5,647 nucleotides of DNA. Source: an uncultured Bacilli bacterium (lineage in GTDB: Bacteria > Bacillota_I > Bacilli_A > RF39 > UBA660). The notes below the pieces were generated by a model. That model was not told the origin of the DNA, did no database searches, and saw only the letters and a program-made list of their open reading frames with translations. The DNA lies in assembly GCA_947588665.1 (NCBI GenBank), contig CANPYU010000083.1:1-5647 (forward strand), written 5' to 3'. The position numbers were made by a program, and so were the translations under genes. This document shows, in pieces, positions 1 to 5,647 of the stretch; the first letter of the stretch is position 1; every line of letters starts with the position of its first letter.

Positions 1-1
1 T

Positions 2-820
2 AATAAATATGGAATTATTTTACCTTATTTTGATGAAGGACTTACTAGTAGTATTTTAAAAGACCTATTTAAAAATAAATATTTGTTTAATGATATATCA
101 GAAAAAATTAGATTATTATATGTAGCACTTACTAGAGCTAGAGAAAAAATGATTATTGTAACTAGTTTTAGTGAAGATGAAAAATATATAAGTAGCTATA
201 AATCATTTTTAGATATTTTAGCAAGTATTAAAAAATATTTAAATAAATATATTACTAATATTAATTTAGATTTAGTTGGCTTAACTAAAGATTATTTATA
301 TGGTAGTGTTAATAATAAACTAAATTTGGATAGTATTGATAAAAAAATTACTTTTAAAAGTTTAAATATCTCAAATAAAGAGTTAGATAATAAAAAAGCT
401 TCAAAAGAAGTGCATGAATTATTAACAGAAGAAGAACTTAATACTTTAGCATATGGAACTCATGTCCATAAGTATTTTGAACAAACGGATTTTTTAAATG
501 TAAGTGAAGATAATCCTTATAAAGACGCTATTAAATATTTAGTAGGAAATTTAAATATAAATAAAGACACCAAAATATATAAAGAACATGAATTCATATA
601 TGTAAAAGATAATATAGAATATAATGGTATTATTGATTTAGTATTAGAAAATGATAATAATGTTATCGTGGTAGATTATAAATTAAAAAATATTAATGAT
701 GAAAAATATTTAGAACAATTAAAAGTATATTATGATTATCTAAAAACTATCTTTAATAAAGAAATAAAAGTATATTTATTTAGTATTATAGATAAAGAAT
801 TAAAAGAGATTACTTTCTAA
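2..820 (+). CDS. addA: AddA-like ATP-dependent helicase/nuclease, C-terminal part (5' end outside window)
   Basis: The reading frame is already open at base 2, giving 272 residues of the C-terminus; the true start lies upstream. Seen: a UvrD/Rep-type helicase motif VI (LYVALTRAREK, about fragment residues 39-49), then about 100 poorly conserved residues, then a RecB-family PD-(D/E)XK nuclease. The nuclease shows GTHVH (nt 454-468), GIID with the metal-binding Asp at nt 635-637, VDYK with Asp-Tyr-Lys at nt 674-682, and a downstream QL-x-x-Y motif. Known for the family: AddA pairs with AddB to unwind and resect double-strand DNA ends for RecA-dependent repair, in the cytoplasm. The family usually has YKTD after the catalytic Lys region; here it reads YKLKN, a mild change with the Asp and Lys kept. 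Order and spacing of motif VI and nuclease fit AddA better than PcrA or UvrD, which lack the nuclease. AddB is not in the window. The TTG at 83 is internal, not a start. Confidence 0.85.
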   Translation, partial: NKYGIILPYFDEGLTSSILKDLFKNKYLFNDISEKIRLLYVALTRAREKMIIVTSFSEDEKYISSYKSFLDILASIKKYLNKYITNINLDLVGLTKDYLYGSVNNKLNLDSIDKKITFKSLNISNKELDNKKASKEVHELLTEEELNTLAYGTHVHKYFEQTDFLNVSEDNPYKDAIKYLVGNLNINKDTKIYKEHEFIYVKDNIEYNGIIDLVLENDNNVIVVDYKLKNINDEKYLEQLKVYYDYLKTIFNKEIKVYLFSIIDKELKEITF

Positions 821-839
821 ATAATAGTAATCTCTTTTT
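802..839 (+). terminator. Intrinsic terminator of the addA-like gene
   Basis: A perfect 13-base-pair stem is formed by 802-814 and 826-838 with an 11-base loop, followed by a T run (835-839). The left arm also supplies an A run. The left arm lies inside the last codons of the upstream gene and the TAA stop (818-820) sits in the loop, so coding sequence and terminator overlap. It should separate addA transcription from the sigma genes downstream. Confidence 0.85.
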
Positions 840-854
840 GTTAAATAACTTTTA

Positions 855-883
855 TTGCAAAATGGATTAATAAATTGTATAAT
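855..883 (+). promoter_or_regulatory. Sigma-A type promoter for the first sigma factor gene
   Basis: A -35 box TTGCAA (855-860, four of six consensus bases) and a perfect -10 box TATAAT (878-883) are separated by 17 bases, the ideal spacing. Predicted transcription start is near 890, leaving a leader of about 20 bases before the ATG at 912. T-rich sequence at 835-856 just upstream could help as an UP-like element. The TG next to the -10 box is one base too close to be an extended -10 motif. Confidence 0.8.
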
Positions 884-900
884 AAAATCTGTTTTAGTTT

Positions 901-906
901 AGAGGT
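901..906 (+). promoter_or_regulatory. Shine-Dalgarno site of the first sigma factor gene
   Basis: AGAGGT, containing the GAGGT core, lies five bases before ATG 912. An in-frame TAG at 900-902 rules out any earlier start, so ATG 912 is well fixed. Confidence 0.75.
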
Positions 907-911
907 ATAAA

Positions 912-3776
912 ATGGCAAATTTAAGTTATAACAAATTAAAAAATTCTTCAGTTTCAGAAATATATAATTATTTAAATGAAGATTATAAAAATCTCTTTAA
1001 AAGTTATAATTATATATTTAACAATTATTCTGATTTTATAAAAGTTGTCAACAATATCATTTCTGATATTATAATTAATTTGCCAAATAAATCTACCATT
1101 AATTATAAAAATTATCTTTTAAATCAAAGTAAAATAAGATTAAATAAATATGTTAAAGATATGTTAGATAGTGAAAATAAAATAACTATTTTATCTTCTT
1201 ATATTAATATTAATATAAATGAAAATCAGAATGAATTAAATGAATTAAAGAAATTTATTAGTTGGTTACAAAAAATAGATTATAATATTGATCCAAGTGA
1301 CATAATTGAATTAATAACAAATAATCAAAAATTAAAAAATATTTTATCTAAAATAATAGATAAAAATATAGTTAAAATAAAAAAATATGGTTTAGAAAAT
1401 GTTTTCACAGAAGAAATAATTTTTGAATTTTTAGATATTTATTGTAATTGTAATTATGTTGAGCATAATGAAATTTTAGATATCGATTATGATGAATCTA
1501 TTTATGAAAAAGATATTGAAAAATTAAAAGGAACTGCTGTAGGAGCTTATGCAATTATAGAAGATATAAAAAAACAAGATTTACCTGTTTTATCAATAGA
1601 AGAAGAACAAGATTTGTTTTTACAACTTAAAAATGGAAGAGAAGATGCTTATAATAAAATTTTAAAACATAATTTAAGGTTAGTTATATCTATTGCAAGA
1701 AGATATTTAAATCGTGGCCTAGAATATGAAGATTTGATCCAAGAAGGTAATATTGGTTTACTTAAGGCTATTTCTAAATATGATGTTTCTAAAGGTTTTA
1801 AGTTTTCTACCTATGCATCTTGGTGGATTAGACAAGCAATTACGAGAGCAATTGGTAATATGGGACGAAATATTCGCTTGCCAATTCATAAAGTTGAGAA
1901 ATTAAAAAAATTTAGGGAACAAGTTAATGAGTTAACTACTAATTTAGGTTATGAGCCATCTTATATAGAGATTGCTGAAAAATTAGGTATAAATTATGAT
2001 ACTGTAAAAGAAAATTTTGAACTTTTACAATTACCGGCTAGTTTAAATGCTAAAATTGGTGAAGATGAAGAAGCGGAACTTGGAGATTTTATACCAAGTC
2101 AGGTAAGTAGTAATTTAGAAGATGATATTATTAATGAAAATCTAGTTACGGAAATAGATGAATTATTGGTTAAAGCAGGACTTACAGAAATTGAACGAGA
2201 TATATTAAAATATCATTATGGTTTAAATTATACTGAAGAAAAAGTATTAGAAGAAATTGGAAAAATTTATGGTATTACTAGAGAAAGAATTAGACAAAGA
2301 GAATCTAAAGCAATTATTAAATTAAGAAAATACTTGCCAACAACTAAATTTTCTTCTTATTTAGATAATCCCGATAAGGCTCAAGTTCAATTAGCAAAAT
2401 TGCGTCATTGGCATTATGAACATCCTAAATCTAATGTTGTTTATAATATTGATGTTAATAATTATCCTCTTCCTTCTTCAATAGATGATATACCCAAAAA
2501 GTATCGTAAACTTAAAACTATTTATGCAGCTATTCCTGATTATTCTAAAGAAGAAATTAATAAAGCAATTACCTATTTATCGGAAGAAGATCAAAAAATA
2601 TTTTATTTACGTAATGGTACTGATTTAGATAATCCAAAATATGCTGGTGATATCAAATATTTGTCAGTAAATTATAATAGTGTTGTAGAAAAATTAAAAA
2701 AAATCTTAAAAAGATCATATAGAAGTAAAATAAAAACAATTTACGAACATTTTCCTCAATATTCTAAAAAAGATATTGATAAAGCTATTTTAATGTTAAA
2801 TGATTATGAAAAAGAAGTAATTTTTTATCGTTATGGTCATGATTTAGAACATCCCGTTACAAGTTCTCTTTGGAATGCAAAAGAATATAGCAAAATTTTA
2901 TATGTTACTATTTTTCAAAAAATTAAAAGAAATATTAATAAAAATAATGATAGGAGTGAAAATAAAAAAATGTTAAAAAAATTATCAATATATGAAAGAT
3001 TAAGCAGTTATTCAAGAGAAGAAATAGATGCTGAAATAGAGAAATTAAAGCCCAAAGAAAAAGAAATATTCTATTTACGTAATGGTACTGATTTAGATAA
3101 TCCAAAAAGTTCTTCTGAATTTACTAATAGTATGAAAACAAGATATTATAATATAGTTGACAAAATAGAAAGCAATTTAAAATATCCAAAAAAATTTATA
3201 AGAGGCACTATATATTATCAACTTGAATTATTAAATCCTAAATATACTAAAGAAGAAATGGATAAAGCAATTTCGCTATTAGATGACTCTGAAAAAGCAA
3301 TTATTGTAGCGCGTTATGGCAGTGATTTAGAAAAACCTGTTTTATCTAAAGATAGAAAATTTAGTTATGGTAAACTTAAAATTGTTTTAAATCATATTAT
3401 AAATATTCTTAATAATATGTTTGATAGTAAAGTAATTAATGAAGAATTAATTGTTTCTCCTAAAAAGCAAATTAAAGAAAAAGAAGTATCAAAAGAATTA
3501 AGAGAGTTTTATATAAGAACAATTGAACTTTTAAAACAACCTGTATTTATGAAACTACTTTTAAATTTATCTATAAAAGATGCAATTATTTTAGCAATGA
3601 TTATTTTAAGTTATTTAGAAAATAGAGAAATTAATTTAGAAGATATAGCTAATTTATTAGAAGTTGATATTAATACTATAAGAAAAGATTATCAAAGAAT
3701 GCTTATATTGTTTAAAGAAAATATTAATGAATATCTTTTAGGAAAATTAGATAATAGTGATTCTATAAAAAGATAG
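912..3776 (+). CDS. Large sigma-70 family RNA polymerase sigma factor with C-terminal repeats (paralog 1)
   Basis: 954 residues; primary sigma factors of Firmicutes are usually under 400. Residues 1-205 form a Lys/Asn/Ile-rich domain I do not recognise, shared with the next gene, in place of region 1.1. Region 1.2 is about 207-243, region 2 about 245-315, region 3 about 320-400 with the acidic finger and LGDFI (390-394), region 4 about 410-475. Key residues of housekeeping sigma are kept: DLIQEGN (274-280, core binding), YASWWIRQAIT (301-311, -10 melting and -12 reading), H326 and E329 (extended -10), TRERIRQ (456-462, -35 helix). The core should therefore bind RNA polymerase and read ordinary TTGACA/TATAAT promoters (inference). 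After region 4 come a conserved linker (481-515), four repeats of about 70-80 residues (535-837) and a helix-turn-helix-like end (880-943). No membrane segment or signal peptide is apparent. It has its own promoter. It is probably an alternative or extra sigma; whether it serves as the primary one cannot be told here. Confidence 0.93.
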   Translation: MANLSYNKLKNSSVSEIYNYLNEDYKNLFKSYNYIFNNYSDFIKVVNNIISDIIINLPNKSTINYKNYLLNQSKIRLNKYVKDMLDSENKITILSSYINININENQNELNELKKFISWLQKIDYNIDPSDIIELITNNQKLKNILSKIIDKNIVKIKKYGLENVFTEEIIFEFLDIYCNCNYVEHNEILDIDYDESIYEKDIEKLKGTAVGAYAIIEDIKKQDLPVLSIEEEQDLFLQLKNGREDAYNKILKHNLRLVISIARRYLNRGLEYEDLIQEGNIGLLKAISKYDVSKGFKFSTYASWWIRQAITRAIGNMGRNIRLPIHKVEKLKKFREQVNELTTNLGYEPSYIEIAEKLGINYDTVKENFELLQLPASLNAKIGEDEEAELGDFIPSQVSSNLEDDIINENLVTEIDELLVKAGLTEIERDILKYHYGLNYTEEKVLEEIGKIYGITRERIRQRESKAIIKLRKYLPTTKFSSYLDNPDKAQVQLAKLRHWHYEHPKSNVVYNIDVNNYPLPSSIDDIPKKYRKLKTIYAAIPDYSKEEINKAITYLSEEDQKIFYLRNGTDLDNPKYAGDIKYLSVNYNSVVEKLKKILKRSYRSKIKTIYEHFPQYSKKDIDKAILMLNDYEKEVIFYRYGHDLEHPVTSSLWNAKEYSKILYVTIFQKIKRNINKNNDRSENKKMLKKLSIYERLSSYSREEIDAEIEKLKPKEKEIFYLRNGTDLDNPKSSSEFTNSMKTRYYNIVDKIESNLKYPKKFIRGTIYYQLELLNPKYTKEEMDKAISLLDDSEKAIIVARYGSDLEKPVLSKDRKFSYGKLKIVLNHIINILNNMFDSKVINEELIVSPKKQIKEKEVSKELREFYIRTIELLKQPVFMKLLLNLSIKDAIILAMIILSYLENREINLEDIANLLEVDINTIRKDYQRMLILFKENINEYLLGKLDNSDSIKR
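2604..2639 (+). repeat. 36-bp direct repeat, copy 1 (within protein repeat 1)
   Basis: The 36 bases are identical to 3072-3107. Extending eight bases upstream adds only one mismatch. It encodes the YLRNGTDLDNPK stretch. The copies lie 468 bases apart, exactly 156 codons, so recombination between them would keep the frame and remove or add two protein repeats. Confidence 0.9.
3072..3107 (+). repeat. 36-bp direct repeat, copy 2 (within protein repeat 3)
   Basis: Identical to 2604-2639 at all 36 bases. Silent positions are conserved as well, although the sequence between the copies and the rest of units 1 and 3 have diverged. This points to recent duplication or local gene conversion rather than protein-level selection alone. 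Confidence 0.9.
3549..3740 (+). other. C-terminal helix-turn-helix-like domain of sigma paralog 1
   Basis: Residues 880-943 form a hydrophobic helix (around 886-901) followed by INLEDIANLLEVDINTIRKDY (907-927), which has the spacing of a helix-turn-helix: IA-x-LL, a turn at EVD, then a second helix with T-I-R-K. This resembles region 4.2 or a generic DNA-binding winged-helix start. If folded this way, the protein ends in an extra DNA- or protein-binding head beyond its normal region 4. The call rests on pattern only. Confidence 0.5.
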
Positions 3777-3783
3777 GTTTTAG

Positions 3784-3812
3784 TTGAAATTACAGTAAAA
3801 TCAAGATATAAT
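3784..3812 (+). promoter_or_regulatory. Sigma-A type promoter for the second sigma factor gene
   Basis: A -35 box TTGAAA (3784-3789, five of six consensus bases) and a perfect -10 box TATAAT (3807-3812) are 17 bases apart. The predicted start of transcription is near 3819, giving a leader of about 23 bases before ATG 3843. The box begins eight bases after the stop of the upstream gene. No intrinsic terminator is visible between the two genes, so read-through from the first gene is also possible and the two may be partly co-transcribed. Confidence 0.8.
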
Positions 3813-3821
3813 AAATTTCAA
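3784..3821. repeat. Inverted repeat bracketing the second promoter
   Basis: TTGAAATT (3784-3791) and its exact reverse complement AATTTCAA (3814-3821) flank 22 bases that hold the promoter spacer and the -10 box. The half-sites are 30 bases apart, close to three helical turns. This could be a repressor operator, but eight-base AT-rich inverted repeats arise easily by chance in such sequence. There is no T run, so it is not a terminator. Confidence 0.35.
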
Positions 3822-3825
3822 ATTT

Positions 3826-3837
3826 AAGGGGAAGTGA
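3826..3837 (+). promoter_or_regulatory. Shine-Dalgarno region deciding the start of the second sigma gene
   Basis: AAGGGG (3826-3831) followed by GTGA (3834-3837) can pair with two parts of the 16S rRNA tail. It lies 11 bases (from GGGG) or 5 bases (from GTGA) before ATG 3843. The only other in-frame start is GTG 3834, which would overlap or touch the Shine-Dalgarno site, and an in-frame TAA at 3825-3827 blocks anything earlier. ATG 3843 is therefore preferred. Confidence 0.65.
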
Positions 3838-3842
3838 CAATT

Positions 3843-5647
3843 ATGAGTAATGACATATGGGAAAAATATCAAGATATTTGGCAAAAATTATATGATGAAT
3901 ATGCCTATGCTTTTACTTATGAAGAATTTAGTAGTCTAATGAAAGAATTTTTAGAAACTATTGTAAAAGTTCCTAATGAAAATTTAGCTAAAGAATATTA
4001 TTTAAAAGAAGGTAAAAAATATTTATTAAATAAAATTCGTTGTCAATTATCTGCTAATAAAATAAATATTTTATTAAACTATATTAATATTAATATAAAT
4101 TCTAATAATAATGTTATAACTGAAATAAATAAATTAATAAAATGGTTAGAATCTTTTGATTATCTACCTTCTCCAAATGTTATTATTGATTTAATAGAAA
4201 ATAGTTCTATATTTAATAGTTTACTAGAAAAAATAGTTAAAAAAAATTTGCCAAAAATTAAAATATATGGTTTAAGTAAAGTTTTTAATAATGATTTAAT
4301 GGTTCTATTTATAGAAATTTATTGTACTTTAAATAATATTGATTTAATAAATATAAATGAAAATGATGAAAATACTTTAGATGATAATAAAGAAGATCAA
4401 ACTACAATTAGTGATATTTTAACAGAACAACAAAGAATTTTATCATCTTATGAAGAAGAACAAACTGAACTAAATAAAACTTACTATATAAAAGAGAAAG
4501 ATAAAGATATACCAGATTATATGCCAACGGGAGCAGATGCTTTTGTTTCAGAAATAAAAAGAAAAGATTTAGAGGTATTAACTAAAGAACAAGAATATGA
4601 TTTATTAGTTAAAATTAAAAATGGCGATCAAGATGCTTATAAATATTTTTATGAACATAATTGTCGTTTAGTTATAAGTATTGCTAGAAGATATAATAAT
4701 TCCTATGTTGAATATGAAGATTTATTACAAGAGGGTTGTATTGGTCTAATGATTGCCATAGATCATTTTGAAGTTGAAAGAGGGCTAAAGTTTTCTACTT
4801 ATGCAACTTGGTGGATTAGACAAACAATTTTAAGAGCTTTAAATAAATATGGTCGTAAAACGGGCATATCTATTAATAAAAATGCTGATTTAATTCAATA
4901 TAAAAAAAATATTGAATTGTTTACTAATGAATTAGGAAGACGCCCTAATGATACAGAATTAGTGGAACATTTTGGTATGTCTTTATTAGAGGTTCAAGAA
5001 AATAATCAATTATTACTAAAAGATTATAGTATTAATCAACCTATTAATGCTGAAGGTGAAGAAGAATTAGGAGACTTTATAAGTGATGATAATAAAAGAT
5101 TAGAAAATGATTTTATAACTCATAATTTAGTTGATGAGATACAATCTTTATTTAAAAAAGCAGGTTTAACTGAACAAGAAAAACTTATTTTAAATTATCG
5201 TTGGGGTTTAAATGGTTTTGAAGAAAAAACTTTATCTGATGTAGGTAAAATATTTGGCTTTACAAGAGAAAGAGCACGTCAATATGAAGGAAAAGCAATA
5301 AAAAAATTACGTAAATATGCAGGTATAAAAGATTTTGCTATATATTTAGATAATCCTGATAAAGCCATAGAAAGAATAAAAAAATTGGATGCTTGGCATT
5401 TTTACAATCCAAATTCTTATGTTATTTATGATATTGATGTTGATAAAATATCATTAGATGAAGAAAAAATGAAAGAAGCACCTACAATTTCGAAAAGAAT
5501 TAAAAAAGAGAATTATTTGTATATAGTTCTAAAACAATATGCTAAAGAAGATATAGATGCCGTAGTAGCAACATTATCTAAAGAAGAAAAGAAAATTATC
5601 GCTTTTCGTAATGATTATTATAATAATCCAACTATATTTTCACCGTG
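3843..5647 (+). CDS. Large sigma-70 family RNA polymerase sigma factor, paralog 2 (3' end outside window)
   Basis: The frame is open for 601 codons from ATG 3843 to the window edge. Architecture mirrors the upstream gene: N-terminal unknown domain (1-168), an acidic Asp/Glu/Asn/Gln-rich linker (about 169-225) longer than in paralog 1, region 1.2 (about 229-262), region 2 (about 265-335), region 3 (about 340-415) with LGDFI (409-413), region 4 (about 425-492), the YLDNPDKA...WH linker (499-533) and the first C-terminal repeat (from about 557). Core binding looks kept (DLLQEG, 293-298), as does the -35 helix (TRERARQ, 474-480). The -10 reading helix YATWWIRQTIL (320-330) has Leu where housekeeping sigma has Thr at the -12 contact. 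The following segment has lost the IPVH motif and the Glu of the extended -10 reader (S343, N345, A348). It is likely an alternative sigma with altered promoter preference (inference). If it matches paralog 1 in length, several hundred residues lie beyond the window. Confidence 0.92.
   Translation, partial: MSNDIWEKYQDIWQKLYDEYAYAFTYEEFSSLMKEFLETIVKVPNENLAKEYYLKEGKKYLLNKIRCQLSANKINILLNYINININSNNNVITEINKLIKWLESFDYLPSPNVIIDLIENSSIFNSLLEKIVKKNLPKIKIYGLSKVFNNDLMVLFIEIYCTLNNIDLININENDENTLDDNKEDQTTISDILTEQQRILSSYEEEQTELNKTYYIKEKDKDIPDYMPTGADAFVSEIKRKDLEVLTKEQEYDLLVKIKNGDQDAYKYFYEHNCRLVISIARRYNNSYVEYEDLLQEGCIGLMIAIDHFEVERGLKFSTYATWWIRQTILRALNKYGRKTGISINKNADLIQYKKNIELFTNELGRRPNDTELVEHFGMSLLEVQENNQLLLKDYSINQPINAEGEEELGDFISDDNKRLENDFITHNLVDEIQSLFKKAGLTEQEKLILNYRWGLNGFEEKTLSDVGKIFGFTRERARQYEGKAIKKLRKYAGIKDFAIYLDNPDKAIERIKKLDAWHFYNPNSYVIYDIDVDKISLDEEKMKEAPTISKRIKKENYLYIVLKQYAKEDIDAVVATLSKEEKKIIAFRNDYYNNPTIFSP
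5511..5647 (+). repeat. Start of the C-terminal repeat array in sigma paralog 2
   Basis: Residues from about 557 show YAKEDID (566-572), a charged L-S-K-E-E-K-K helix and R-N-D-x-x-x-N-N-P (589-596). These match the order of motifs in paralog 1 repeats, with the G-x-D-L part replaced by DYYN. Only the first unit is visible before the window ends. Confidence 0.7.

Follow-up and report, generated by a model that had tools for sequence, protein, structure and literature searches.

A tandem pair of oversized RpoD-like sigma factors with region 4-related tail repeats in uncultured Bacilli

Introduction

Among the described proteins closest to those studied here are RpoD/SigA and the group-2 sigma-70 factors. 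To our knowledge, the sigma factors described so far use a single region 4 to read promoters. Further points of comparison are the sporulation sigma factors SigE and SigK, the transcription activator-like effectors (TALEs), MzaA of the anti-phage system MZA, and the pTERF proteins. The latter are DNA-binding tandem-repeat proteins of gut Bacillota with helical repeats and different motifs in each array (PMC11417379). They are related to mTERF, the screen that found them grouped repeats with periods of 15–35 amino acids (aa), and the main text does not contain the word sigma (PMC11417379). Here we analysed a stretch of 5,647 nucleotides, called the window below, from an uncultured gut bacterium of the Bacilli (lineage Bacillota_I; Bacilli_A; RF39; UBA660; GenBank assembly GCA_947588665.1, contig CANPYU010000083.1, positions 1 to 5,647 of the forward strand), in which two adjacent open reading frames, ORF1 and ORF2, encode unusually long sigma-70 factors.

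In our best reading, whose chances we consider evenly balanced, these genes encode paralogous group-2-type, RpoD-like sigma factors with extra region 4-derived modules that may read DNA near or upstream of the -35 box. If true, this would be a new way to build promoter specificity into the polymerase without activators, as well as a natural repeat scaffold, possibly a programmable one. With its tail, each of the two proteins may read a longer stretch of promoter DNA than sigma factors normally do. We found no description of such sigma tails in the open-access literature searched; subscription papers or preprints may hold one.

Two paralogous sigma factors in tandem

Both genes lie on the forward strand, as do all window features given below. 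ORF1 (912–3776) encodes 954 aa, and ORF2 (3843–5647) is cut by the window end. The ORF2 frame is open from GTG 3834 too, and from there it runs for 604 aa to the window end without a stop. The preferred predicted start is ATG 3843, which stands behind AAGGGG and matches the start of the ortholog in locus L125 of genome G069 (upstream sequences compared by eye), and the full ORF2 protein is probably about 780 aa long.

The Pfam models Sigma70_r2, r3 and r4 match both proteins in order and above their curated cut-offs. In ORF1 they cover region 2 at 1665–1853 (residues 252–314; PF04542, E 4.4e-23), region 3 at 1896–2111 (residues 329–400; PF04539, E 3.8e-13) and region 4 at 2175–2330 (residues 422–473; PF04545, E 8.6e-21). 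The same models match ORF2 at 4647–4856 (residues 272–341, E 5.3e-22), 4896–5096 (residues 355–421, E 1.2e-8) and 5160–5315 (residues 443–494, E 8.4e-13), with residues counted from GTG 3834. The best NCBIfam model for both proteins is TIGR02393 (RpoD), with E values of 6e-83 for ORF1 and 2e-59 for ORF2 that exclude a chance match to sigma-70. The scores of 278 and 201 bits stay below the equivalog cut-off of 354, and the two proteins are therefore RpoD paralogs and not RpoD itself. Besides six smaller sigma-70 frames of 166–263 aa, genome G069 has another sigma frame, of 385 aa, which clusters with canonical RpoDs; two of the nine region-2 frames of this genome are extended. These data bear out the preliminary description of the window, made from the sequence alone, which had proposed two adjacent, oversized sigma factors with a full housekeeping-type core.

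Alignment shows that the canonical RpoD recognition motif TRERxRQ is kept in the true region 4 of both proteins, intact as TRERIRQ in ORF1 and as TRERARQ in ORF2. ORF2 and its L125 ortholog have lost the T of the region 2.4 motif QAIT (QTIL/QAIL) and the HxxxE of region 3.0, the latter at the start of the ORF2 region 3 match. These changes are consistent with an altered -10 or extended -10 preference.

ORF1 residues 15–568 and ORF2 residues 6–593 share 40.6% identity over 594 aa. The alignment spans the N-terminal domain, the core and the linker behind region 4, so all three are common to both proteins, as had been noticed before. The N-terminal domain of ORF1 (residues 1–186, 912–1469) is predicted to be helical, with a predicted local distance difference test (pLDDT) score of 72–92 per 10-residue block up to residue 180; its ORF2 counterpart lies at 3843–4346. 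This domain has no match in Pfam or, among the matches listed, in NCBIfam in either protein. Used alone as a query it found five proteins, query included, and it occurs with the same tail in ORF2 and relatives. In the structure model of ORF1 the fold matches are taken up by the sigma core, at about residues 209–486. The conserved linker (2331–2516 in ORF1) carries YLDNP and WH motifs common to ORF2.

The protein search with the tail gave 37 proteins, query included. Seven proteins of 870–946 aa (P0002–P0005 and P0007–P0009) align end to end with ORF1 at 55–63% identity, and the last three of them carry three tail repeats, not four. Locus L125 has, in order, an AddB-like gene (a weak match, below cut-off), an AddA-like gene (below cut-off) and genes for proteins of 930 and 783 aa, of which the first is 60% identical to ORF1 and the second (L125:79-2430) 63% identical to the visible part of ORF2. 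The preliminary description had suggested looking for further copies downstream; L125, where we looked for them, ends 78 bp past the second sigma gene, and the repeat matches listed for G069 all lie on that contig.

A quick maximum-likelihood tree of 88 sigma cores, in which 42 of the 85 inner branches are open and the deep branches unresolved, places the window pair, the L125 pair and the seven proteins above (11 rows) in one clade, with a support of 98 in the Shimodaira–Hasegawa-like approximate likelihood ratio test (SH-aLRT). Within it, ORF2 and its L125 ortholog group with a support of 100 on a long common branch (0.88), and the ORF1 side has a support of 81. Five canonical RpoDs group together (87), apart from the window genes. 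The tree supports the proposed gene duplication, which therefore appears older than the split of the two species. The specialisation that had been proposed to follow it is plausible, given the long branch and the motif losses on the ORF2 side.

The tail repeats and their relation to region 4

The extension of roughly 480 residues reported behind region 4 of ORF1 was recovered in our analysis as about 470–480 residues made of four repeats of ~66 aa and a terminal domain. A repeat hidden Markov model (HMM) of 66 positions found the four copies at 2517–2708 (residues 536–599, independent E value (iE) 2e-20), 2736–2933 (residues 609–674, iE 1e-22), 2985–3179 (residues 692–756, iE 7e-24) and 3234–3410 (residues 775–833, iE 7e-14), the fourth being divergent. 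The region 4 model PF08281 has its best stretch in the third repeat, at residues 702–723, with an E value of 5.9e-11 that applies to the whole ORF1 protein and not to this repeat alone. The terminal domain (about residues 861–946, 3492–3749) is region 4-like by analogy with the family, in which this domain shows the region 4 fold. The window holds only the start of one ORF2 repeat (5520–5630, residues 563–599, iE 7e-9, model positions 3–40), and the matching tail that had been proposed for ORF2 is seen in its L125 ortholog, where the repeat model matches three times, once in the true region 4 and twice in the tail, with a terminal domain recognised by eye.

After iteration, the repeat model also found the true region 4 of ORF1 as a further copy. 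Because iteration can contaminate a model, we then used a repeat-only model, A2, built from 37 repeat rows (two of them not natural), and ran it against 932 other proteins of the loci, a set without the frames already matched by the iterated model. Setting aside one truncated family member, the canonical RpoD region 4 ranked first: three of the four RpoDs were found below 1e-3 and the fourth at 0.0056. One unrelated 115-aa frame reached 7.6e-4, and none of five shuffled controls was among the 41 domain matches listed. A profile-profile comparison between repeat and region 4 gave a probability of 94% and an E value of 1.3e-7 over 33 columns (11–43), which correspond to the 4.1 half. When single A2 rows were compared with Pfam, five of the 37 matched each of two region 4 models at E<=0.01 (best 4.6e-5, below the curated cut-off), and two other families matched one row each. 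The whole array of protein P0006 scores 122 bits with PF08281, against a cut-off of 25.7; such whole-array family scans were not relied on because repetition inflates their scores. That the tail repeats are related to sigma region 4, most clearly in the first half of the unit, is well supported by these profile comparisons.

The AlphaFold2 model of the array protein P0010 has four helices per unit, at repeat positions 2–5, 11–19, 23–33 and 47–66. The pLDDT within the repeats is mostly 69–87 per 10-residue block and lower in the linkers, and the predicted template modelling score (pTM) is 0.22, so the model does not fix the placement of the units relative to each other. When the array model was compared with the PDB, the 50 matches listed were sigma entries, starting from E 5.8e-3.

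The preliminary description had correctly seen a repeat-bearing C-terminus, and it had overlooked that the units are related to region 4 and occur on other sigma backbones as well as without a core. It had also considered that the N- and C-terminal parts might belong to a well-described family; the N-terminal part has no described family, and among curated models the tail is matched consistently by sigma region 4 only. In protein P0033 (1630 aa) the repeat model matches 15 stretches. By eye, several of these continue after a FYxxFxGY start with a region 4-like second half, and the protein is possibly an intermediate between region 4 and tail repeat.

Variable positions and turnover of the repeats

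In most arrays of near-identical repeats, the differences between units are concentrated at repeat positions 35, 48, 51, 52, 56 and 57, as first seen on 10 arrays. To score each array the sites were chosen from the other arrays, five sites in a test on 10 arrays and six in a test at the DNA level on eight; the chosen set once included 19 and once 49. The set stands out in eight of the 10 arrays, with at most 377 of 20000 random position sets as extreme, and in seven of the eight arrays of the DNA test, with at most 894 of 20000. The 10 arrays remained from 14 after dropping the near-identical P0011, P0012, P0019 and P0020, and in both tests arrays with fewer than three usable repeat pairs were uncounted. 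The two tests overlap, since L015, L019, L121, L128 and L135 are in both and L164 is a near-copy of P0006, and only L165 and L167 are fully new in the DNA test. Pairs of repeats taken from one array depend on each other, and the permutation randomises positions and leaves the histories of the repeats aside.

At the variable sites, the proportion of nonsynonymous differences (pN) exceeds that of synonymous differences (pS) in five of the eight arrays (pN/pS 0.324/0.178 in L015, 0.419/0.319 in L135, 0.326/0.128 in L167, 0.214/0.000 in L128 and 0.280/0.250 in L165). Outside these sites pN is lower than pS in seven of the eight, and level in L015 (0.037/0.037). Protein L167, a frame of 1351 aa with a complete core and seven repeats, illustrates the pattern: the site types combine V with N in three units and Y with T, R, R or K in four.

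Aligned to two RpoDs (L119 and L132), the last helix of the repeat falls on TRERIRQIEAKALRK, with posterior marks of 5–6 of 10. By this alignment, positions 48, 52 and 57 correspond to what we take to be R584, R588 and K593 of E. coli sigma70, presumably two base contacts and a backbone contact, respectively. P0006 and L164 vary mainly at 43–49 and 52, that is, in the loop and at the start of the same helix. The ORF1-type repeats are of another kind: in all eight proteins compared, three of which have no fourth repeat, they follow one fixed order, and each of them has a conserved last helix of its own. The mean difference at the six sites and at the rest is 0.65 vs 0.37 between orthologs, and 0.88 vs 0.57 between repeats of one protein.

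We also typed the repeat units by positions 41–57 and compared close relatives. P0006 and L164, which are 97.6% identical, both read abcdefghijklm, and two of the units show point differences; the additional first unit typed in L164 corresponds to a divergent stretch present in P0006 too. P0011 (abcfghilp) has two pairs of units fewer than P0006. P0010 (abcdef) and P0012 (abcdegf) are 99% identical, and P0017 (abcde) can be set beside P0020 (abje). L135 and L136 have 94% identical DNA around the gene and different arrays, that of L136 being cut by the contig end. Judging from these unit orders, whole repeat units seem to have been gained and lost between close relatives.

Distribution and architectures of the family

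ORF1 alone found no match when used as a query against genome contigs, and the terminal-domain alignment found 59 loci. Their contig titles are mostly those of metagenome-assembled genomes of uncultured Bacilli, Tenericutes and Erysipelotrichaceae, several with names that point to rumen, rectum or rabbit samples. In the order of G004, A2 matches were found in 46 of 146 genomes at 1e-6 and in 40 of 146 at 1e-8; the six others have only matches weaker than 1e-8, some of them in frames as long as an ordinary sigma factor. For the order of G044, A3 matches were found in 83 of 385 genomes at 1e-10 (at most 16 candidates scored per genome). With at most 20 candidates scored per genome in each sample, 10 of 296 genomes of the class sample and three of 295 of the phylum sample match at 1e-8, and all matching genomes fall within the sample of the G004 order. 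In the genomes sampled, the family was thus found in one order of Bacilli only, probably RF39, in line with the earlier suggestion of a lineage-specific family. No relative was found in the viral contig or phage collections searched. Locus L017, on a contig titled uncultured Methanobrevibacter sp., holds an extended bacterial sigma factor, which the tree places with those of the Bacilli; this is probably a binning error.

A strict count, too low for divergent repeats, gives 92 frames with one or more tail repeats in the fetched loci, the window left out. An RpoD-like core with 1–9 repeats is present in 55 of them, a SigE/K-like core with 1–7 repeats in 19, and 18 (1–14 repeats) have no core, some of these being cut by contig ends. 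The model that called the SigE/K-like class was itself derived from eight or fewer of these proteins, and a few loci may share one genome. For six chosen proteins, one of them incomplete, NCBIfam confirmed SigE/K-like cores, all below the SigE and SigK cut-offs. SigE/SigK-type factors with the same tail lie at L002:7373-8830, L018:8774-10303, L054:8981-10303 and L135:8368-10287, where the terminal domain was judged by length. The association of the tail with two sigma backbones points to a role in transcription initiation. We detected no fixed partner gene, as no neighbour family occurs at more than five of 70 loci (363 genes within ~3 kb, single-linkage BLAST at 1e-8).

With the iterated model, up to 19 stretches were found in one protein (L118, 1864 aa). 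At L118:6068-16455 (G044) this giant gene is adjacent to another, of 1568 aa, with 19 and 16 region 4-like stretches, respectively, and next to them lie the genes of a sigma factor (949 aa) and a repeat protein (595 aa), so that four such genes cluster here. Another type of tandem cluster was observed at L123:5350-11984 (G035), where four consecutive repeat genes of 532–551 aa stand between ribosomal-protein and nusG-like genes (names given by eye, according to the N-termini).

Promoters and neighbouring gene

A predicted sigA-type promoter precedes each sigma gene of the window: TTGCAA-17-TATAAT at 855–883 before ORF1, and TTGAAA-17-TATAAT at 3784–3812 (11 of 12 matches) before ORF2. Both are kept before the L125 orthologs, with conserved spacing and boxes, and before ORF1 with the flanks too. 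The number of promoter-like sites in the two intergenic regions is not above that of shuffled sequences, and the predicted promoters were accepted because of their conservation in L125 and not because of site count.

Upstream, positions 2–820 encode the C-terminal part of an AddA-like helicase/exonuclease (NCBIfam addA_Gpos, E 4.8e-12), a neighbour outside the sigma system. Over 271 aa this fragment shares 83% identity with the end of the L125 AddA-like protein, for which addA_Gpos gives E 2.8e-138, below the cut-off.

Proposed function and alternative explanations

In the proposed mechanism, we infer that the core would bind RNA polymerase and recognise ordinary -10 and -35 boxes. The true region 4 keeps the RpoD recognition motif, which suggests ordinary reading of the -35 box, with added selectivity coming from the tail. 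Each tail repeat would be an extra DNA-binding module that presents a helix equivalent to the -35 recognition helix to the neighbouring DNA, and the sigma factor would thereby select promoters by a longer sequence near or upstream of the -35 box, without an activator. Which sequence a module reads would depend on the residues that vary from repeat to repeat, the target would change as repeats are gained or lost, and paralogs would specialise through their different tails and, in ORF2, also through altered regions 2.4 and 3.0. We infer that the window genes may be promoter selectors, as had been suggested before. A wider view is that in this order of bacteria a -35-reading domain has been turned into a modular, evolvable DNA-reading repeat, present in 1–14 or more units on different cores or on none, with a few specificity residues per unit in the helix that corresponds to the -35 recognition helix, which would read extended promoters in a TALE-like manner and whose gain and loss would rewire regulons between strains; this we put forward tentatively, as rather doubtful.

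Several observations weigh against DNA reading by region 4-derived modules. The profile comparison is limited to 33 columns of the 4.1 half, and in the P0010 repeat model a loop stands at the place of the first helix of the helix-turn-helix (HTH), so that a complete HTH is missing and the repeats are region 4-derived and not a full region 4. No PDB chain matched the array model at E<=0.001, and a second PDB comparison aligned mainly the terminal domain. The P0006 array also passes the cut-offs of FakA-like_C, DUF4279 and others. The variable-site set fails to fit P0006 (1943/20000), P0013 (2239/20000) and L164 (3151/20000), and pN is not above pS in L164 (0.224/0.539), L019 (0.379/0.439) and L121 (0.400/0.403). 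Two of the four RpoDs align with the repeat only up to position 35–36 and the other two are weak (5–6 of 10) in the last helix; the other base contacts of region 4.2, which we take to be at 49 and 53, lie outside the variable set. The ORF1 repeats are old, with a fixed order, and many of their other positions are also repeat-specific, which makes the evidence for reading residues weaker in the window than in the arrays. The differences in array length could partly be assembly error in repetitive DNA.

The main rival is that the tail repeats bind protein: as copies of region 4 they would have retained or altered its hold on the RNA polymerase beta-flap, an anti-sigma factor, a further sigma factor or an activator, and their variable residues would reflect changing partners or a conflict with an inhibitor. 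Region 4 is known to bind proteins besides DNA (complexes 4g6d, 7kuf, 6onu and 8cwt), and both the preservation of the 4.1 half and the absence of the first HTH helix would fit such a role, whereas in most arrays the variable sites lie in the last helix, two of them by alignment at base-contact positions of region 4.2. The neighbour families speak against a fixed partner encoded nearby, though one encoded elsewhere is still conceivable. We take protein binding seriously as a possibility, with a chance well short of even. It is unlikely that the tail is instead an autoinhibitory or scaffold element, which would shield the DNA-binding parts until a signal or protein releases them and would read no sequence: the conserved linker between core and tail and the fixed repeat order in ORF1 relatives are what one would expect of it, but the core-less arrays, the excess of amino-acid change at a few sites and the differences in array length would be left unexplained.

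Two further explanations concern the genes themselves. Since oversized sigma proteins are rare and much of the data come from metagenome assemblies, a sequencing or assembly error might have fused separate genes, as the preliminary description had considered. This is refuted and can be practically dismissed: the full-length architecture recurs on separate contigs, in the seven proteins that match ORF1 over its whole length, and the gene order of the window is found again in L125. The same order and the kept promoters in L125, together with the separate full-length relatives, therefore exclude a fusion and make the tandem pair a conserved arrangement. The other candidate explanation is that the genes form part of an MZA-related anti-phage system. 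MzaA is itself a long sigma-70 protein, and its PADLOC model matches both window proteins (E 5.7e-49 and 7.7e-31). However, the match is limited to the last ~255 residues of the MzaA profile, which are the common sigma core, ORF1 scores 244 bits against a cut-off of 800 for the NCBIfam MzaA equivalog, the upstream neighbours in L125 are AddA- and AddB-like, and the viral and phage collections searched gave no match, all of which makes this explanation very improbable.

Comparison with known systems

MzaA resembles the window proteins in being a long protein with a sigma-70 core, and differs in that only this core matches, below the cut-off, and that no MZA neighbours were recognised. The pTERF proteins share with the family the helical tandem repeats in gut Bacillota; they are set apart by the periods of at most 35 aa covered by the screen that found them, about half of the 66-position repeat found here. 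The likeness to TALEs lies in the tandem near-identical repeats, in a few variable residues at fixed positions and in repeat numbers that differ between relatives. Variation at fixed positions was found in eight of 10 and seven of eight arrays (five of them in both tests), P0006/L164 and P0013 being the ones that do not fit. The TALE repeat is unrelated: it has 34 aa, whereas the repeats described here have ~66 aa (about 73–94 from start to start) and are fused to sigma factors, and their DNA reading is putative. SigE and SigK are linked to the family by relatives in the same bacterial group that carry the same tail on a SigE/K-like core, but the SigE and SigK models themselves cover 227–241 aa without such a tail, and the window genes are RpoD-like. 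RpoD/SigA and the group-2 sigma-70 factors are proteins that the window proteins resemble in their complete regions 2–4, in -10 and -35 motifs that are largely kept and in the fold of about residues 209–486. Unlike them, the window proteins begin with an N-terminal domain of no known family and continue behind region 4 with repeats related to that region and a terminal domain.

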